Assembly (NCBI GenBank): GCA_033344875.1 | Contig: JAWPMO010000001.1 | Location: forward strand, 2,133,595 to 2,197,594 | Source of the DNA: Ilumatobacteraceae bacterium | Lineage (GTDB): Bacteria > Actinomycetota > Acidimicrobiia > Acidimicrobiales > Ilumatobacteraceae | DNA length: 64,000 nt | Direction: 5' to 3' | In this document: positions 2,136 through 46,835 of the stretch, one piece after another | Position numbering within the stretch: the first letter of the stretch is position 1 | Layout: every line of letters starts with the position of its first letter | Made by a program: the position numbers and the translations under genes | The notes under the pieces: model-generated | Seen by the model: the letters and a program-made list of their open reading frames with translations, nothing else | The model's database searches: none | Told to the model about the DNA's origin: nothing

Positions 2136-2447
2136 TCAGTCGGCCGTCGACGTCGGCAACACGTCACCGTCGTCGGCGATCCGCTGGTGGTGGTGGATCA
2201 CCTCGGCCACGATGAACCGCAGGAACTTCTCGGAGAACACCGGATCGAGCCCGGAGTCCTCGGCGAGCGTGCGCAGACGGGCGACCTGCCGGGCCTCGCG
2301 ATCGAGATCTGCCGGGGGCAGCCCGACCGACGCCTTGTACCGGCCGACGTCCTGGGTGATCTTGAACCGCTCGGCGAGCAGGTGGATGAGTGCGGCATCG
2401 ATGTTGTCGATGCTCGAGCGGTACCTGGCGAGCTGCTCATCCGTCAT
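2136..2447 (-). CDS. Chorismate mutase, AroQ type
   Basis: Small all-helical chorismate mutase converting chorismate to prephenate for phenylalanine and tyrosine synthesis. 103 residues match the stand-alone AroQ length. The first helix carries the expected R-x-x-I-D-x-I-D-x-x-L/I pattern (YRSSIDNIDAALIHLLAERF), followed by a K-rich second helix region and a C-terminal helix with IVAEVIHHHQ. ATG start at 2447; there is no signal peptide, so it is cytoplasmic. First gene of the aroQ/flavoprotein pair and divergent from the hydroxyacid dehydrogenase at 2502. Confidence 0.85.
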   Translation of the reverse strand: MTDEQLARYRSSIDNIDAALIHLLAERFKITQDVGRYKASVGLPPADLDREARQVARLRTLAEDSGLDPVFSEKFLRFIVAEVIHHHQRIADDGDVLPTSTAD

Positions 2448-2501
2448 GGTGACCAGACGCTACCGGATCTCCTCGCCACGCCAAGGGGCTACGTTCGCGA
2501 G

Positions 2502-3431
2502 ATGGATCCTCTGCCGGTGCTGTTCGTCGATCATCCGTTCCCGGAGATGTACCTCGACCTGGTCGACGGGCGGGCCACGGTGGTCGGCTCGGGCAGCGAC
2601 GACGGGTTGGCCGATGCCGTCGCTGTCGTCGCCGGCGCCTCACGCCCGTGGGACGCCACCGCGTTCGCGCTGGCGCCTCGGCTCCGGGTCATCTCGCGGG
2701 TCGGCGTGGGCTACGACAACGTCGACGTCGAAGCGGCGCATGCCGCCGGTGTCGTCGTGTGCAACGCCCCGCTCGCACCGATGGTCTCGACCGCCGAGCA
2801 CACGATGGCGCTGATCTTCGCGGTCACGAAGCATCTCCCTCATCAGATGCGCCGAGCCGAACAGGGGCTCCGGGGTGAGCCGGTCGGTCGCTCGCTCGAA
2901 CTCGACGGCCGCGTGCTCGGCCTGGTCGGCATCGGCCGGATCGCGAGCCGGGTGGCGGTCGCCGCCCAGGCGCTCGGGATGCGGGTGATCGCGACCGACC
3001 CCGCCATGAGCGAGTCGCCGGTGGCCGGGGTCGACCTGGTCGGCTTCCACGAACTCCTCGCCATGAGCGACGTGGTGTCGTTGCACGCCCCTGCCGTGCC
3101 GTCGACGATCGGGATGATCGATGCCGACGCCATCGGTCGCATGAAGCCCGGCTCGTACCTCGTCAACTGCGCTCGCGGGCTGCTGGTCGACCACGACGCG
3201 CTCCGCGTCGCGCTCGACGCCGGGCACCTCCTCGGAGCCGGACTCGACGTCACCGACCCCGAGCCGCTCCCCGCCGGCCACCCCCTGCTCGATCGCCCCG
3301 ACGTCGTCGTGACCCCGCACGTCGCCTCCGCGACCGCTGCGGGACGTCACCGGCTGTACGCCCACGCCATCGACAACGCGTTGGCCGTGCTCGACGGCAG
3401 ACCGGCCTCCGTCGTCGCGCCATCGACCTGA
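2502..3431 (+). CDS. D-isomer-specific 2-hydroxyacid dehydrogenase
   Basis: NAD-dependent dehydrogenase of the phosphoglycerate/glyoxylate reductase family, interconverting a D-2-hydroxyacid and its 2-oxoacid. 309 residues from ATG 2502. The NAD-binding Rossmann loop GLVGIGRIA lies at 140-148, and the catalytic triad is present as R225 (NCARG), E254 (DPEPLP) and H273 (TPHVAS). The open frame continues far upstream, but only the part from 2502 resembles the family. The HpcH-type aldolase begins 12 bases downstream, suggesting an operon that degrades or makes a hydroxyacid. No regulatory C-terminal ACT domain is present, so it is not a long-type SerA. Substrate unknown. Confidence 0.85.
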   Translation: MDPLPVLFVDHPFPEMYLDLVDGRATVVGSGSDDGLADAVAVVAGASRPWDATAFALAPRLRVISRVGVGYDNVDVEAAHAAGVVVCNAPLAPMVSTAEHTMALIFAVTKHLPHQMRRAEQGLRGEPVGRSLELDGRVLGLVGIGRIASRVAVAAQALGMRVIATDPAMSESPVAGVDLVGFHELLAMSDVVSLHAPAVPSTIGMIDADAIGRMKPGSYLVNCARGLLVDHDALRVALDAGHLLGAGLDVTDPEPLPAGHPLLDRPDVVVTPHVASATAAGRHRLYAHAIDNALAVLDGRPASVVAPST

Positions 3432-3443
3432 CAGACTCGTCGC

Positions 3444-4223
3444 ATGACTTTGCGTGACACCCTCTCGGCCGGTGGCGAGGCCCTCGGCTTCTGGCTCTCG
3501 ATGCCCGGTTTCGTCGGTGCCGAGATCGCCGCCAGGCAACCCGTCGACTACGTCTGCGTCGACACCCAGCACGGGGCGATCGACTACCTCACGTCGGTGT
3601 CGATGATCCAGGCGATCGAACTCGCCGGCGGCACCCCGATCGTGCGGGTGCCGTGGAACGAGCCGGGGATCATCGGCAAGTCCCTCGATGCAGGCGCACA
3701 CGGCGTCGTCGTGCCGATGGTGAACACTCGAGCCGAGGCCGAGGCGGTCGTGCGCTCATCGCGCTACGTGCCAGAGGGCGCCCGGAGCTGGGGGCCGATC
3801 ATGGCGTCGCAGCGCCACCCCGACAACCGGGCGTGGGCCCACGAGACGATCTGCGTGATCCCGATGATCGAGACCCGCGAGGCGATCACGAACCTCGACG
3901 ACATCCTCTCGGTCCCCGGCATCGACGCGATCTACGTCGGACCCGCCGACCTGTCGCTCAGCCTCGGTCTCCAACCGTCGGGCAACGCCGACGAGACGGT
4001 GCTCGACGAGGCGCTCGCCACGATCGTCGAGGCCTGCGGACGCCACGGCGTGACCCCGGGGATCCACAGCTCCGGCGCGCTGGCGCAACGTCGCCGTGAT
4101 CAGGGTTTCCGGATGATCACGATCGGCAGCGACGCGCTCGCGCTCCGAGCGGGGTACGCGGGCGAGCTGGCCGCCTCGGCGGGGCCCGCCGACGAGTCGT
4201 CGGCATCAGGCAGCCTGTACTGA
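3444..4223 (+). CDS. HpcH/HpaI-family class II (metal) pyruvate aldolase
   Basis: Member of the HpcH/HpaI aldolase family that reversibly cleaves 2-keto-3-deoxy acids to pyruvate plus an aldehyde, using a divalent metal. 259 residues, the standard size. Visible active-site residues are H43 (DTQHG), R68 (IVRVPW), and the metal ligands E143 (MIETREA) and D169 (GPADLS). Related enzymes include YfaU (2-keto-3-deoxyrhamnonate aldolase) and HpaI; the substrate cannot be fixed. It probably forms a two-gene operon with the preceding dehydrogenase. The last ~20 residues are a polar, low-complexity tail. Confidence 0.85.
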   Translation: MTLRDTLSAGGEALGFWLSMPGFVGAEIAARQPVDYVCVDTQHGAIDYLTSVSMIQAIELAGGTPIVRVPWNEPGIIGKSLDAGAHGVVVPMVNTRAEAEAVVRSSRYVPEGARSWGPIMASQRHPDNRAWAHETICVIPMIETREAITNLDDILSVPGIDAIYVGPADLSLSLGLQPSGNADETVLDEALATIVEACGRHGVTPGIHSSGALAQRRRDQGFRMITIGSDALALRAGYAGELAASAGPADESSASGSLY

Positions 4224-41245: not shown

Positions 41246-42682
41246 TCAGCTCTTGCGCTGGTGCAGGATCTGCGACACGAGCTTGCCGTCGGCCTGACCG
41301 CGACTCGCCTTCATGATGTGCCCGACGAGCGCGCCCATCGCCTTGCCCTCGCCGGCGCAGAACTTCTCCCACGCATCGGGCTGGGCGGCGATCGCGTCGT
41401 CGACCATCGCTTCGAGCTCCGACGTGTCCATCGCCTCGAAGCCCTTGTCGGCGGCGATGGCCGCGGCGTCGCCGCCACCGCGTGCGATGAGCTCGGCGAC
41501 GACGGTCTTCGCCTGGGTGGCCGTCAGCTGCCCGTCGATCTCCATCCGGGTGAGGCCGGCGAGGTCGGCGGGCGGCAGCGCCGGCTCGGCGCCCGCATCG
41601 GCGAACGCCTCCTTGAGATGCACGACCGCGCGACCGATCTCGCCGCCGGCGGCCTGCACGGCGAACGCGTAGTCGTCCTGTCCGCGCTCGACCAGGATGC
41701 CGACGGCCTCACTGTCGGGTTCGAGGCCCGCGGCCTCGGCGAGTCGGGTGCGACGGGCTGCGGGCAGCACCGGCAGCGCCGCACGGACCGACTCGATCCA
41801 CTCGGTCGACGGGTCGAGCGGGACGAGATCGGGTTCGAGGAAATAGCGGTAGTCGTCGGCGTCTTCCTTGTCGCGCAGCGTGTGAGTGCGGCCGTCGCCC
41901 TCGTCCCAGTGGCGGGTCTGCTGTCGCACTGCCTCGCCGCTCTCGATCAGGATGATCTGGCGCCGGGCCTCGTACTCGATCGCCCGACCGACCGAGCGCA
42001 CCGAGTTGACGTTCTTGATCTCGCAGCGGGTGCCGAACTCGTCGCCGGGGCGCCGGACGCTGACGTTCGCGTCGACACGCATCGAGCCCTCCTCCATCTT
42101 GGCGTCGGACGCCTCGATCGCGAGGAGGATCGCCCGGAGTTCGCCGACGTACGCCTTCGCCTGCTCGGGCGAACGGATGTCGGGACGACTCACGATCTCG
42201 ACCAGCGGCACACCGGCCCGGTTGAGATCGATCAGCGAGTGTTCGGCGCCGTGGACGCGACCCTCTCCCCCACCGACGTGGGTCGACTTGCCGGCGTCCT
42301 GCTCCATGTGGGCGCGCTCGATCCCGACCCGGCTGCCGTCGGGCAGGTCGAGCCAGCCGTCGACGTTGAGCGGATCCTCGTACTGGCTGATCTGGTACGA
42401 CGTCGGCATGTCGGGATAGAAGTAGTTCTTGCGGGCGAACGTGCAGCGCTGCACGGTGCAGTTCAGTGCCAGACCGATCCGCATCGCCAGCTCGACCGCG
42501 TGCCGGTTGAGCACCGGGAGTGCTCCGGGCAGACCGAGGGTGACCGGGTCGATGTTGGTGTTCGGCTCGTCACCGAACCGGTTCGGCGACGCGGAGAACA
42601 GTTTGGTGGCGGTGGAGAGCTCGGCGTGCACTTCGAGCCCGACGACCATCTCCCAGCCGTCGTGGGTCCAGATCTCGCTCAT
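41246..42682 (-). CDS. gatB: Aspartyl/glutamyl-tRNA(Asn/Gln) amidotransferase subunit B
   Basis: 478 residues. GatB of GatCAB, which converts Glu-tRNA(Gln) or Asp-tRNA(Asn) to the amide form with glutamine-derived ammonia. Typical features are VGLEVHAELST at the N-terminus, KNYFYPDMPTSYQISQY, the cradle domain up to about 290, and the C-terminal YqeY-like tail domain (about 330-478). Overlaps the gatA stop by four bases. Order gatC-gatA-gatB. Confidence 0.96.
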   Translation of the reverse strand: MSEIWTHDGWEMVVGLEVHAELSTATKLFSASPNRFGDEPNTNIDPVTLGLPGALPVLNRHAVELAMRIGLALNCTVQRCTFARKNYFYPDMPTSYQISQYEDPLNVDGWLDLPDGSRVGIERAHMEQDAGKSTHVGGGEGRVHGAEHSLIDLNRAGVPLVEIVSRPDIRSPEQAKAYVGELRAILLAIEASDAKMEEGSMRVDANVSVRRPGDEFGTRCEIKNVNSVRSVGRAIEYEARRQIILIESGEAVRQQTRHWDEGDGRTHTLRDKEDADDYRYFLEPDLVPLDPSTEWIESVRAALPVLPAARRTRLAEAAGLEPDSEAVGILVERGQDDYAFAVQAAGGEIGRAVVHLKEAFADAGAEPALPPADLAGLTRMEIDGQLTATQAKTVVAELIARGGGDAAAIAADKGFEAMDTSELEAMVDDAIAAQPDAWEKFCAGEGKAMGALVGHIMKASRGQADGKLVSQILHQRKS

Positions 42683-44115
42683 GCCAGGCCTCCTGCCGCC
42701 CGCTCGAGTTCGGCCGCCACCTGCAGCATGACCGGCTCACCGAGCGCTGGCGCCAGCACCTGGACGCCGACCGGCAGATCGTCGGCACCGGTGCCGAACG
42801 GCACGCTCATGCCCGGGTCGCCCGTGAGATTGGCGGGGATCGTGTAGGTGTCGCACAGGTACATGGCGAACGGATCGGCGGTCTTCGACCCGAACGGGAA
42901 GGCGACGCTGGGCGACGACGGGGTGAGCAGCACGTCGGCCTGTTCGTACGCCACGGCGAAGTCGCGTGCCATCAGGCGCCGGATCTTGAGCGCCTTGCCG
43001 TAGTAGGCGTCGTAGTAGCCGGCCGACAGGGCGTACGTGCCGAGCAGGATGCGCCGCTTGACCTCGTCGCCGAAGCCGGCCGCACGGGTCGCCATGTACA
43101 TCGCGTCGGTGGTCGCCGCGTCGACCCGCATCCCGTACCTGACGCCGTCGTAGCGAGCCAGGTTGGACGAGGCCTCGGCCGGGGCGATCAGGTAGTAGGC
43201 GGTCAGGCCGTAGCCGAAGGCGGGCACCTCGACGTCGACGATCGTGGCGCCGGCTTCGCGGAGCGCGTCGAACGCCTGCTCGAGCCGCTGCTGCACATCC
43301 GGGTCGGCACCCTCGGGCAGGTCGGTGATCCGACCGACACGGAGCCCCTCGACGCCGGCTTCGAGCAGTGCCGAGTAGTCGGGCAGCGGCTCGGGGATCG
43401 ACGTGGAGTCGCGCGGATCGTGCCCCGAGACCGTCTGGAGCGCGAGCGCTGCATCGCCGACCGTGTGGGCGAACGGACCGATCTGGTCGAGGCTGCTGGC
43501 GAAGGCGACGAGGCCGTACCGGCTCACCCGCCCGTAGGTCGGCTTGATCCCGACGACGCCGCACAGCGCTGCGGGTTGGCGGATCGATCCGCCGGTGTCG
43601 GACCCGAACGACAGCGCCGAGAACCCGGCGGCGACCGCAGCGGCCGAACCACCCGACGAACCGCCGGGCACACGCGTCGTGTCGAGCGGGTTGCGGGTCG
43701 GACCGAATGCGGAGTTCTCGGTCGACGAGCCCATCGCGAACTCGTCGAGGTTGGTCTTGCCGACCGCGACAGCGCCGGCCGCGTCGAGCATCGACACGAC
43801 GGTGCCGTCGTACGGCGGGATCCACCCCTCCAGGATCTTCGACGAGCACGTCGTCGGCACACCGCGGGTGCACATGTTGTCCTTGAGCGCGACCGGCACA
43901 CCGGCCAGCGGACCCGGATCGTGTCCGGCTGCGACGGCCTCGTCGACGGCAGCGGCCCGCTCGCGTGCCCGATCGGCCATCACCGTGTTGAAGGCGTGGA
44001 TCTCTCCCTCGCGGTCGTCGATCCGCGCCAGGTGGGCATCGAGGACGTCGACGGCCTTGAGCGTGCCGGAGCGGACACCCGCGGCGATCTCGACGGCGGT
44101 GGTCTCGTCGCCCAT
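42679..44115 (-). CDS. gatA: Aspartyl/glutamyl-tRNA(Asn/Gln) amidotransferase subunit A
   Basis: 478-residue amidase releasing ammonia from glutamine. The Ser-cisSer-Lys catalytic triad is complete: K78 (VALKDN), S153 (GGSSGGS) and S177 (GSDTGGSIRQ). ATG at 44115 overlaps the gatC stop region. Presence of GatCAB implies an indirect route for Gln-tRNA or Asn-tRNA. Confidence 0.97.
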   Translation of the reverse strand: MGDETTAVEIAAGVRSGTLKAVDVLDAHLARIDDREGEIHAFNTVMADRARERAAAVDEAVAAGHDPGPLAGVPVALKDNMCTRGVPTTCSSKILEGWIPPYDGTVVSMLDAAGAVAVGKTNLDEFAMGSSTENSAFGPTRNPLDTTRVPGGSSGGSAAAVAAGFSALSFGSDTGGSIRQPAALCGVVGIKPTYGRVSRYGLVAFASSLDQIGPFAHTVGDAALALQTVSGHDPRDSTSIPEPLPDYSALLEAGVEGLRVGRITDLPEGADPDVQQRLEQAFDALREAGATIVDVEVPAFGYGLTAYYLIAPAEASSNLARYDGVRYGMRVDAATTDAMYMATRAAGFGDEVKRRILLGTYALSAGYYDAYYGKALKIRRLMARDFAVAYEQADVLLTPSSPSVAFPFGSKTADPFAMYLCDTYTIPANLTGDPGMSVPFGTGADDLPVGVQVLAPALGEPVMLQVAAELERAAGGLA

Positions 44116-44414
44116 CAGCCCTCACCGCCCGTCGGCGGCACCCGGAAGCGACCGTCCTCGGCATCGGGTGCCATGGCCAGCGCCTCGTCGCGATCGATGC
44201 TCGGCTGCACGATGTCGTCGCGCATCACGTTGACCAGGTGGTACGGCTGCGTCATCGGTTCGACATCGTCGAGGTCGAGGGCGTCGATGTCGGCGAAATG
44301 CTCGAGCATGTCGCCCAGCTGTTCGGTCGCCAGGTCGATCTCGGCCGACGTCAGCTCGAGTCGGGCAAGGTGTGCGACCTTGGCCACATCTTCACGGGTC
44401 AGACGTTCGGACAC
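44115..44414 (-). CDS. gatC: Aspartyl/glutamyl-tRNA(Asn/Gln) amidotransferase subunit C
   Basis: 99 residues from GTG 44414; the longer open frame upstream runs through the citrate synthase gene and is not coding. Typical LTREDVAKVAHLARLELTSAEI start and the DVEPMTQPYHLVNVMRDD belt that wraps GatA and GatB. First gene of gatCAB; only 11 bases after the citrate synthase stop on the same strand. Confidence 0.95.
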   Translation of the reverse strand: MSERLTREDVAKVAHLARLELTSAEIDLATEQLGDMLEHFADIDALDLDDVEPMTQPYHLVNVMRDDIVQPSIDRDEALAMAPDAEDGRFRVPPTGGEG

Positions 44415-44425
44415 GAGTAGCGAGG

Positions 44426-45607
44426 CTACTGACCCCCGAGCCCTCGACCCACATGGGCTGCTGCGGGTTGGACGCGGGCGAGCGATCGGTCGGGCCGCGG
44501 CCCCACGTACCGTGCTGCCGGCCTGATCAGCTTGCCGACGGCCGCCTGTTCCAAGGCGTGGGTCACCCAACCGATCACTCGGCTCACGGCGAAGGTCGGG
44601 GTGAACATCGAACGTGGCAGACCGACGGTCTCCATGATCACGCCGGCGTAGAACTCGACGTTGCTCGGCAGCGGCCGGTCGGGCTTGAGCTCGGCGAGGG
44701 TCGCGAGGATCTCGACCTCGGTCGCCATCGCCTGCTCGACGAGCGGGCCACCGAGCGACTCGGCGACCTCGCGGAGCAGCCCCGAGCGCGGATCCGGAGC
44801 GCGGTAGACGGCATGCCCGAATCCCATGATGCGTCGGCCGGCGGCGAGTTCGGTGCGGACGAACCGGGCTGCGTGCGCGGGGTCGCCGATCGCGTCGAGC
44901 GCATCGAGGGCACGGCTCGGCGCACCGCCGTGCAGCGGTCCGGCGAGCGCGCCGATCGCCGCACACACGACGTCGGCGATGTCGGCACCGGTCGATGCGA
45001 CCACCCGGCCGGTGAACGTCGAGGCGTTGAACCCGTGGTCGACCGTGAGCATCAGGTACTGCTCGAGCGCCCTGGCGTGTGCCGCCGACGGCGTCCGGCC
45101 GGTGACGGCACGGAGGTACGACGCGGCGTGGCCGAGGCCGGGCATCGGTGCGGGGATCTCGGTCCCGGCCGCAGCATGGTGGAGCGCGGCCAGCACGGTC
45201 GGCGTCAAGGCCGCGATCGAGCGGGCCTGACGTCGCCGTTCGTCGACTCCGAGATCGAGCATCGGGGCGAGGCCGATGACCTGCTGCGTCGCCGACAGCA
45301 CCGTTCGCAACTGCGCCAGCGGCGAGCCACCGGTCCGCGCCGCGGCCTCGATCAGCGGGCCGAGATCGGCCGGCAGATCGCGGAGCGGCTCCACCTCGGA
45401 CCGGAAGCGGTCCAGTTCGACCCCGGTCGGGAGTTCACCGTGTTCGAACAGGTACCAGACCTCCTCGAAACCGACGGACCGCGCGAGTTCGGTCGCGTCG
45501 TACTGGCGGTAGTGGTAGAAGCCTTCGTCGCCGTGGACGGTTCCGATCGCCGTGTCGGCCACCGCCACGCCGTTGAGTCCCGGGGGTACGTCGATGAGTT
45601 CGTTCAT
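44426..45607 (-). CDS. Citrate synthase family protein
   Basis: 393 residues from ATG 45607. Condenses oxaloacetate and acetyl-CoA (or propionyl-CoA). Active-site histidines H191 (TVDHGFNAST), H226 (GPLHGGAP) and H265 (MGFGHAVYR) are present. The catalytic aspartate of the NVDFYSG motif is replaced by Glu (E318 in NVEFYAG), seen in some 2-methylcitrate/secondary citrate synthases. The last residues are Pro/Arg-rich. Divergent from the HTH-citrate synthase across an 88-base gap full of dyads, and followed by gatC. Confidence 0.9.
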   Translation of the reverse strand: MNELIDVPPGLNGVAVADTAIGTVHGDEGFYHYRQYDATELARSVGFEEVWYLFEHGELPTGVELDRFRSEVEPLRDLPADLGPLIEAAARTGGSPLAQLRTVLSATQQVIGLAPMLDLGVDERRRQARSIAALTPTVLAALHHAAAGTEIPAPMPGLGHAASYLRAVTGRTPSAAHARALEQYLMLTVDHGFNASTFTGRVVASTGADIADVVCAAIGALAGPLHGGAPSRALDALDAIGDPAHAARFVRTELAAGRRIMGFGHAVYRAPDPRSGLLREVAESLGGPLVEQAMATEVEILATLAELKPDRPLPSNVEFYAGVIMETVGLPRSMFTPTFAVSRVIGWVTHALEQAAVGKLIRPAARYVGPRPDRSLARVQPAAAHVGRGLGGQ

Positions 45608-45623
45608 GCGTCGAGTTTCCGCC

Positions 45624-45664
45624 GTCAACCGTTGGTGATCAACGTTGATCTTATCAACATTGAC
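45624..45664. promoter_or_regulatory. Interlocking dyad array between the two citrate synthase genes
   Basis: Consecutive half-sites GTCAAC, C, GTTGGT, GATCAAC, GTTGATC, TT, ATCAAC, ATTGAC. The central GATCAACGTTGATC (45637-45650) is a perfect palindrome, overlapping a second perfect dyad GTTGAT-CTT-ATCAAC (45644-45658). The array occupies most of the 88-base divergent gap and so probably both promoters. Confidence 0.75.
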
Positions 45665-45695
45665 GAATCCACGCCGCCCTGGGACGATGGCACAC

Positions 45696-46835
45696 ATGTC
45701 GACGTTGATCGGGGCGAAGGAGGCCGCCGCGACCCTTGGCGTCACCAAGCCGACGCTGTACGCCTACGTCTCTCGTGGTCTCGTCACTCGCCAGGTGGCA
45801 GTGGACGGCCGCACCTCGCTCTACGACCGGGCCGAGGTCGAGACCCTCGCGAACCGGTCGCGTCGTCGGCCTCCCGCGGAGCGCCCGTCGATCGACGTGC
45901 AGATCGCGACCTCGGTCACACGGCTCCACGACGACTCCCCGACCTACCGGGGGCAGCGCGTGCTCGACCTCGTCGAAAGTCACTCGTTCGAGCAGGTGGC
46001 CGATCTACTCCTCACCGGCGAGGCGACCGGCCGTGCGACCGACTGGAAGCTCGATCGATCGGCGCTCGCCCGCTCCCGGAGCATCGTCGATGCCGCGACA
46101 CCGATCGATCCGCTGGGAGCGCTGTCGCTCACCGCACGATCACTCGAACATCGCGACGGCGACCAGACCGCAACGGTCACGCGTCGGCTGCTCTCGATCA
46201 TTCCGTCGGTGCTCGGGGGTCCGCAACGCGGCGGCATCCCCGACCGGCTCTCGCGGGCGTGGCTCCGGCGACCCGCCCCGCAGGTCGTCGACGCGGTCGA
46301 ACGGGCGCTGATCCTGTTGGCCGACCACGAGCTCGCGACCAGCACACTCGCCGTGCGGGTCGCTGCGTCGGTCCGTGCGGCACCGCCGGCTGCACTCGCC
46401 GCGGGCCTCGACGTCGTCGCGGGACCACTGCACGGTGCGGCGAGCCAGGCTGCGGTCGCCCTGTTCGAGCACGCCTCCGAGACCGACCCGGCCGACGCCG
46501 TCCGATCCGGGCTCGGCGGCGGCCGACGGCTGCCGGGTTTCGGTCACACCGTCTACCGCCGTGGCGACCCTCGATTCGAACCACTCCTCGACGCCGTGCG
46601 AGCGATCCCGGCACCGCCCGAGCGCATGGCCGTCGTCGACGAGGTCATCCGGGAGGCGGGTCGATCGATCGGGCATCTCCCCAACATCGATCTCGCACTG
46701 GCAGCATTGATACACGTCGCCGGTCTCGCGAGCGATGTACCGCTCTTCGGCGTGGCGCGCCTCGCGGGTTGGGCGGCGCACTACGACGAGGAGCTCGGCG
46801 AGCGCCCCGTCCGGTTCCGAGGCCTCAGCCGCTGA
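45696..46835 (+). CDS. Helix-turn-helix domain fused to a citrate synthase
   Basis: 379 residues from ATG 45696 (ATG 45687 possible). Residues 1-55 form a MerR/excisionase-type winged HTH: STLIGAKEAAATLGVTKPTLYAYVSRGLV, then a wing (VDGRTSLYDRAEVETLANR). A basic linker (56-64) leads into a citrate synthase domain. All catalytic residues are present: H201 (LADHELATS), H236 (GPLHGAAS), H274 (PGFGHTVYRRGDPR) and D322 (LPNIDLALA). It is shorter than its divergent paralogue in the small domain. An enzyme that binds DNA, or a metabolite sensor that reuses the enzyme fold, are both compatible. The dyad array directly upstream is the natural target. Confidence 0.88.
   Translation: MSTLIGAKEAAATLGVTKPTLYAYVSRGLVTRQVAVDGRTSLYDRAEVETLANRSRRRPPAERPSIDVQIATSVTRLHDDSPTYRGQRVLDLVESHSFEQVADLLLTGEATGRATDWKLDRSALARSRSIVDAATPIDPLGALSLTARSLEHRDGDQTATVTRRLLSIIPSVLGGPQRGGIPDRLSRAWLRRPAPQVVDAVERALILLADHELATSTLAVRVAASVRAAPPAALAAGLDVVAGPLHGAASQAAVALFEHASETDPADAVRSGLGGGRRLPGFGHTVYRRGDPRFEPLLDAVRAIPAPPERMAVVDEVIREAGRSIGHLPNIDLALAALIHVAGLASDVPLFGVARLAGWAAHYDEELGERPVRFRGLSR

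Follow-up and report, generated by a model that had tools for sequence, protein, structure and literature searches.

An open reading frame in the 64,000-nucleotide stretch of Ilumatobacteraceae DNA analysed here (the window) encodes a citrate synthase (CS) domain preceded by a winged helix-turn-helix (HTH). We consider it probable that the protein is a dedicated one-component transcription factor built from citrate synthase, which would control its own gene and a divergent CitA-type CS gene through an operator array in the gap between them, with the CS fold acting as the sensor (Table 1). Judged by comparison of sequences, the link between the fusion protein and the operator is real and conserved, and new as far as we have searched; the best reading of the same comparison is a widespread regulator that would also be autoregulating.

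Table 1. Features of the fusion locus, in positions of the window, and loci of relatives with a different partner
Feature	Position or locus	Strand	Details
Divergent CitA-type citrate synthase (partner), 393 aa	44426..45607	-	Glu at catalytic Asp position (SNVEF)
Third site TCAACCGTTGG, degenerate	45625..45635		Read from sequence
Operator core GATCAACGTTGATC, perfect 14-nt palindrome	45637..45650		Repeat search and comparison
Second operator site ATCAACATTGAC	45653..45664		TCAA 15 nt from TCAA of first site
HTH-citrate synthase fusion gene	45696..46835	+	379 aa; start ATG at 45696
Near-copy TCGACGTTGATC	45699..45710		Overlaps codons 2-5 of fusion gene; may be chance
Winged helix-turn-helix, residues 4-57, MerR/BldC/Xis type	45705..45866	+	Pfam, structure model, fold search
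Citrate synthase domain, residues 72-368	45909..46799	+	PF00285 E 7e-49; fold match
H211 codon, invariant	46326..46328	+	Alignment
H246 codon, catalytic His by alignment	46431..46433	+	Alignment
H284 codon, catalytic His by alignment	46545..46547	+	Alignment
R293 codon, invariant	46572..46574	+	Alignment
D332 codon, catalytic Asp by alignment	46689..46691	+	Alignment
R355 codon, invariant	46758..46760	+	Alignment
R375 codon, invariant	46818..46820	+	Alignment
HMGL-type partner loci	L061, L072, L073, L076, L089, L110, L114, L120, L127		

The fusion had been described, from the letters of the DNA, as a 379-residue protein in which a MerR/excisionase-like HTH is joined to a citrate synthase domain, and both the Pfam search and the structure model agree with this. 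A second in-frame ATG lies 9 nt upstream of the start. PF13411 (MerR_1) matches residues 8-52 with 21.7 bits, marginally above its cut-off of 21.6, while HTH_17 and MerR score under their cut-offs in the Pfam search; amongst the 30 aligned fusions of the order HTH_17 was matched at E <= 0.01 in all 30 and MerR_1 in 27. The AlphaFold model, which is of a single chain and has a mean pLDDT of 91.9, contains a beta segment (residues 4-6), helices at 7-14 and 18-26, strands at 32-34 and 41-44 and a further helix at 45-57, followed by lower-confidence residues to around 70. When the HTH was modelled alone, the top fold matches were phage Xis, BldC and SoxR, with Z scores of 8.0, 7.9 and 7.7 that are trustworthy for the general class only. 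Leu14, Gly15, Tyr22, Tyr24, Val25, Ser26, Arg27 and Gly28 of the HTH are invariant in the 30 fusions, which were picked by whole-protein similarity, and also in the 94 rows of the wider alignment described below, where the selecting pattern itself demanded most of them.

The gene facing the fusion is a plain citrate synthase, as the sequence-only reading had it, and the best relative of this partner with a solved structure is Bacillus subtilis citrate synthase 1. Three PF00285 genes are found in the genome: besides the adjacent, divergent pair of fusion and partner there is a housekeeping-type CS at 1602603. Among the matches listed, the closest named relatives of the fusion are those at L034 and L035 (Ilumatobacteraceae, Ilumatobacter), to which it is 56% and 49% identical, and the partner in the window shares 72% and 65% identity with theirs. 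Close after the partner CS, within 41246-45607 on the minus strand, are genes that by eye read as gatC, gatA and gatB of an amidotransferase; because they follow so closely on the same strand, the operator might influence this run as well. In a subgroup of the order (L009, L012, L019 and L027-L033) the CS part of the partner starts several hundred nt from the fusion. At two of these loci, L028 (3-1343, minus strand) and L030 (minus strand), the intervening sequence looks, by eye, like two CBS-like modules joined to the CS, which suggests that adenylates control the partner enzyme.

The gap between the fusion and the partner is 88 nt long (45608-45695). The three dyads previously read in it, GTCAAC/GTTGGT, GATCAAC/GTTGATC and GTTGAT/ATCAAC, were all found, the site at 45625-45635 being degenerate. 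Across the whole 4.97-Mb genome, a single contig on which the window spans 2133595-2197594, exact matches to TCAACRTTGAY occur in this gap only (three rows, corresponding to two sites), compared with one match in the backward-read control, and the pattern TCAANNTTGAN{4,8}TCAA occurs at one place, again the gap, compared with none in the control. As the exact matches are confined to the gap between them, the fusion and its partner are the genes that the array would be expected to control. A sigma-70 scan of 45500-45800 gave no sites and, at Rfam gathering scores, there was no RNA family in the gap, the one tRNA lying elsewhere in the window. The sole terminator-like match in a scan of 45500-45800, at 45630-45644, was set aside, as it consists of the operator repeats.

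The dyads had been expected to recur beside orthologous fusions if the two belong together, and they are kept both within the order and beyond it. Of 148 genomes of the order searched with the fusion, at least 35, including its own, have matches across both the HTH and the CS domain. Within 170 nt upstream of the fusion, 26 of the 30 best fusion loci of the order have the strict site, TCAANNTTGA, again with our own included, giving 36 sites in all; dinucleotide shuffles of the 30 upstream stretches gave a mean of 0.07 sites, and there were none in the other 100,730 nt of the same loci. The step of 6 nt from TCAA to TTGA is set by the search pattern. In most loci of the order the distance from the TTGA on to a third half-site is 9 nt; in others it is 10-13 nt. 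Where the strict site is missing, L009 and L019 have TAAACGTTGATCAA[CG]TCAA and L015 has TCTACGTTGATTAATCAA, and at L024 there are scattered half-sites only.

Scanning 84,980 species genomes with an alignment gave at least 596 stretches and at least 582 relatives, from which the best 80 were examined. All 80 carry the YxYVSRG HTH, this stretch being one of the two search patterns. The strict site is found with 65 of these best 80 and the three-half-site form with 60, and the strict site or a near variant with 75, where the near-variant pattern was written after the sequences had been inspected. Grouped manually, the 80 include Actinomycetota, 24 Alphaproteobacteria and one each of Acidobacteriota, Myxococcota, Deinococcota and Dormibacterota. 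All 24 alphaproteobacterial loci have the strict site, but they are not independent because most are from Bradyrhizobium. In a separate sample of the phylum the fusion was present in 16 of 119 genomes, and amongst the fusion loci examined outside the class the strict site lies near the HTH in 7 of 11; in one of the other four, G220, there is a site near the partner instead. The Kitasatospora locus L080 (Streptomycetaceae) has the fusion, the divergent partner and the operator.

To these we can add a set of 93 distinct fusions, which includes the protein of the window. The HTH pattern used to gather them requires LG and misses LA and LS proteins, so that most of the Bradyrhizobium copies, which are counted in the 80, fall outside it. 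The strict site accompanies 71 of the 93 and the three-half-site operator 64, against means of 0.15 and 0.00 in 100 shuffles. For the 22 without the strict site, 12 have a near variant, by the pattern written after inspection, and 10 have none; a narrower near-variant pattern gave 71 of 93 with a shuffle mean of 0.03. Relatives are also carried on plasmids: a Bradyrhizobium query matched 49 plasmid records at E <= 1e-40 and a Kitasatospora query matched one, and in the three that were opened (Agrobacterium fabrum C58 plasmid At, Azospirillum thermophilum and Embleya) both the HTH and the operator are present. Among the plasmid-borne relatives listed, 18 of 20 are annotated as 'citrate synthase family protein'; if they and their like are regulators, it is a mistake to count them as additional citrate synthases in gene inventories and metabolic models.

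The strict site is absent from all 16 loci of CS genes without a fusion (15 belong to the same phylum, the other to our own genome), which were scanned over their whole length. One of them, L136, is an incomplete locus and is likewise free of the site. Since not all are CitA-type, these loci control for CS genes generally and not for the subtype of the partner. In 18 fusion-bearing genomes the three-half-site pattern lies in the fusion gap in 14, the strict match being missing there in the remaining four, and there are about 21 matches elsewhere, compared with 9 for the backward-read control; outside our own genome the operator is thus near-unique and not strictly so. Part of these other matches may be true sites or may be targets of other regulators. 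When eight of the extra operator-like stretches were searched with the partner by tblastn a CS was found in L144 only, and a search of ten further stretches with CS and HMGL queries gave a CS only in L151 and L157. Apart from L143, which has a CoA-transferase, the remaining extra matches could have arisen by chance or could serve other regulators. In L153 (from G004) the match is inside, and not before, a long frame that by eye resembles a CoA-transferase. The motif in L160 looks like a different palindrome (TTCAAGATTGAA).

These controls bear on whether the array could belong to some other regulator, MtrA- or GlnR-like or otherwise, with the HTH of the fusion being a remnant or binding elsewhere. 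A case in point comes from Streptomyces coelicolor, where sco5831 and sco5832 are likewise two CS-family genes sharing one intergenic region and are probably orthologues of our gene pair. In gel shifts MtrA binds the stretch that separates them, and at late time points both genes are expressed more highly in an mtrA mutant (PMC12323332), so that another regulator would also act at what is probably the orthologous place. The genes (citA3/citA4) are described as putative citrate synthases and MtrA targets, with no mention of an HTH in the section that covers them (PMC12323332); from the layout we would guess that sco5832 bears one. The MtrA consensus, GTAACC-N5-GTAACC (PMC12323332), differs from TCAA-N2-TTGA, and our site is absent from every one of the CS loci that lack a fusion. 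It accompanies the fusion in Bradyrhizobium, Agrobacterium, Calidithermus and others and stays when the partner differs, and the HTH residues are invariant in all 30 fusions of the order. That the array belongs to another regulator therefore seems very unlikely. The sequence-only reading, in which the fusion binds the array and acts on both genes in response to a ligand, is supported in part: comparison ties the array to the fusion and to CS genes, so that fusion and array belong together, while binding and response form part of the mechanism suggested below.

Genomes in which the locus has been rearranged are informative about what the operator follows. For 11 of the 93 fusions there is neither a CS nor an HMGL gene in divergent orientation within 1.5 kb, and of these the strict site is kept in 6 and absent in 5. 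By this definition L052, with a divergent CS 1.6 kb off, counts as partnerless, and some of the loci are near contig ends. In L074, one of the six that keep the site, the CS is in tandem with the site between. No CS neighbours the fusion in G004, a metagenome-type assembly with some 250 contigs, and another of its contigs has a CitA-type CS, 54% identical to the partner in the window, with the operator around 50 nt upstream. In G134, which is from the same family as the window genome, there is no CS beside the fusion and only two CS-like matches genome-wide, presumably the fusion itself and the housekeeping CS. Here the operator, TCAACATTGAGTGATCAACGTTG, stands about 100 nt before the housekeeping CS; the like locus of the window genome (L001) has no strict site. 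G269 has two fusions (L157, on G269:C37, and L071), each with an operator and one with a CS partner.

A second site in G134 lies around 46 nt before a CoA-transferase family III gene, and in Azospirillum thermophilum the divergent partner is itself a CoA-transferase, with the operator in the gap. The two CoA-transferases are 37% identical over 357 aa, with the similarity extending outside the Pfam domain. This type of enzyme accompanies the operator in two lineages that are far apart, in trans in one and as the divergent partner in the other. They represent a subfamily of about 460-480 aa (L143 at 2796, which is G134:C1:133731, and L162 at 2411-3850). In 9 of the 93 fusions the divergent gene is an HMGL-type (DRE-TIM) synthase, which is not homologous to CS, and the operator is present in all nine. 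For the three that were tested by family search the best score was for homocitrate synthase, below the cut-off. These partners may be homocitrate or isopropylmalate-like synthases, or possibly Re-citrate synthases; as candidates for Re-citrate or homocitrate synthases they occur in Actinomycetota, Calidithermus and Dormibacterota.

The CS domain is clear by fold and family. PF00285 gives 167 bits against a cut-off of 27, although the NCBIfam CS models match weakly, the best being TIGR01800 with 113.7 bits against a cut-off of 421.3. Residues 60-379 superpose on PrpC (6s6f) with a Z score of 36.4 and an rmsd of 2.3 Å over 319 residues, and the best sequence match is 3hwk. Both of these, and 3tqg and 3o8j, which with 6s6f are among the best fold matches, are 2-methylcitrate synthases, which would be consistent with a regulator that senses propionyl-CoA or 2-methylcitrate and has a methylcitrate synthase as its partner. 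Such a role is unlikely given that the genome has no match to PrpD (PF03972), for which 7 of 14 in a control set do, that the partner is closest amongst solved structures to a citrate synthase of B. subtilis and that the operator in G134 stands before the housekeeping citrate synthase.

The active-site residues were reported earlier as H201, H236, H274 and D322. The residues are indeed retained, but the true numbers are 10 higher, His211, His246, His284 and Asp332. By alignment we take His211, Arg293, Arg355 and Arg375 to be the positions that contact oxaloacetate or citrate in known citrate synthases; the equivalent of Arg293 presumably contacts the substrate carboxylate, and that of Arg375 is presumably the arginine reaching the active site of the other subunit. 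None of the seven catalytic and contact residues varies among the 30 fusions of the order, and 86 of the 93 distinct fusions have all seven. The four contact residues are invariant throughout the 93 (94 aligned rows, as the window protein is present twice), whereas His246, His284 or Asp332 is replaced in seven: at 284 by Gln in three and by Gly and Met in one each, at 246 by Gln in one and at 332 by Glu in one. Five of the seven replacements were confirmed in their sequence context, with those of L095 and L110 being from the alignment alone. In the L157 fusion a Gln takes the place of a catalytic His. As the contacts are conserved more strictly than the catalytic residues, we take the pattern to mean that binding of oxaloacetate or citrate has been selected for and that catalysis is optional. 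The strict conservation of these contact positions makes it likely that the CS domain is a sensor of oxaloacetate, citrate or acetyl-CoA.

A variant compatible with this explanation is a trigger enzyme, a working citrate synthase that also regulates and whose own flux would set its DNA binding. It is a possibility that we take seriously without favouring it: the seven residues are kept in the great majority of fusions, yet the partner and the housekeeping enzyme in the same genome are separate citrate synthases, and a sensor fits better than an enzyme in the seven lineages where a catalytic residue is lost and the contacts are kept. The fusions may also form a multi-phylum family of factors with a catalytically competent citrate synthase sensor, gauging the entry step of the TCA cycle at their own active site and setting whichever citrate-forming or CoA-handling enzyme sits behind the operator; we see this as a fair possibility, though less likely than not.

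Returning to the dedicated transcription factor, a mechanism can be suggested. The N-terminal winged HTH would bind the TCAA-N2-TTGA array together with the further TCAA half-site, and since citrate synthase is a dimer the fusion would presumably bind as one. In doing so it would control its own gene and that of the divergent CitA-type citrate synthase, a link that comes from the comparison. The CS domain would most probably read the level of oxaloacetate, citrate or acetyl-CoA, and the opening and closing of the CS dimer may shift how the two HTHs are seated on the DNA. The likeliest sign would be repression by default, relieved or strengthened by the ligand, because the array fills a short gap between two start codons and because the final half-site in Bradyrhizobium lies directly against the presumed start codon. 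The fold of an enzyme of core metabolism would then also be the sensor of a gene regulator, and a compact, portable operator with a natural oxaloacetate, citrate or acetyl-CoA sensor would serve as a biosensor.

In a FastTree tree of the 93 fusions and 118 plain CS frames, in which Alphaproteobacteria are under-sampled, the fusions fall in one clade of 96 tips with a support of 0.97. All 96 tips bear the HTH, including three that had been entered as 'plain' and in which it was found on checking. With one clade and an HTH on every tip, a single fusion event followed by spread would be the simplest history. Citrate synthase is among the best-studied enzymes, yet at least 582 relatives of the fusion were found, with the HTH in all of the 80 examined, and we recognised no description of an HTH-citrate synthase regulator in the open-licence literature, judged mostly at the level of abstracts.

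Set beside known systems, the fusion shares with the citrate synthase family (PF00285; TIGR01800-like type II and methylcitrate synthases) the CS fold and the active-site residues, and differs in its added N-terminal winged HTH, its low TIGR01800 score and its separate clade. With MerR/BldC/excisionase-type winged HTH proteins it shares the HTH fold and the Pfam matches, and its divergent, presumably self-controlled layout is common to many MerR systems. In its single-chain model no long MerR-type coiled coil is visible between the HTH and the effector domain, where confidence is lower, and its operator of TCAA-N2-TTGA arrays is probably unlike that of MerR, which is of the spaced -35/-10 type. 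In the CitR-citA pair of B. subtilis, a regulator gene and a CitA-type CS are likewise divergent. That regulator, CitR, belongs to the LysR proteins and lacks a CS domain, and no LysR family is among the Pfam matches of the fusion up to E 1. BirA, NadR and PutA are trigger enzymes that unite catalysis with gene control; they are different enzymes, and the fusion may similarly be both catalyst and regulator. The HTH of MocR/GabR proteins is of a different family from that of the fusion. They nevertheless share with it the idea of sensing by an enzyme fold that follows an N-terminal HTH, the fold being that of an aminotransferase in MocR/GabR (PMC6917764), and the effector of the fusion has the PF00285 citrate synthase fold in place of the PLP aminotransferase fold.
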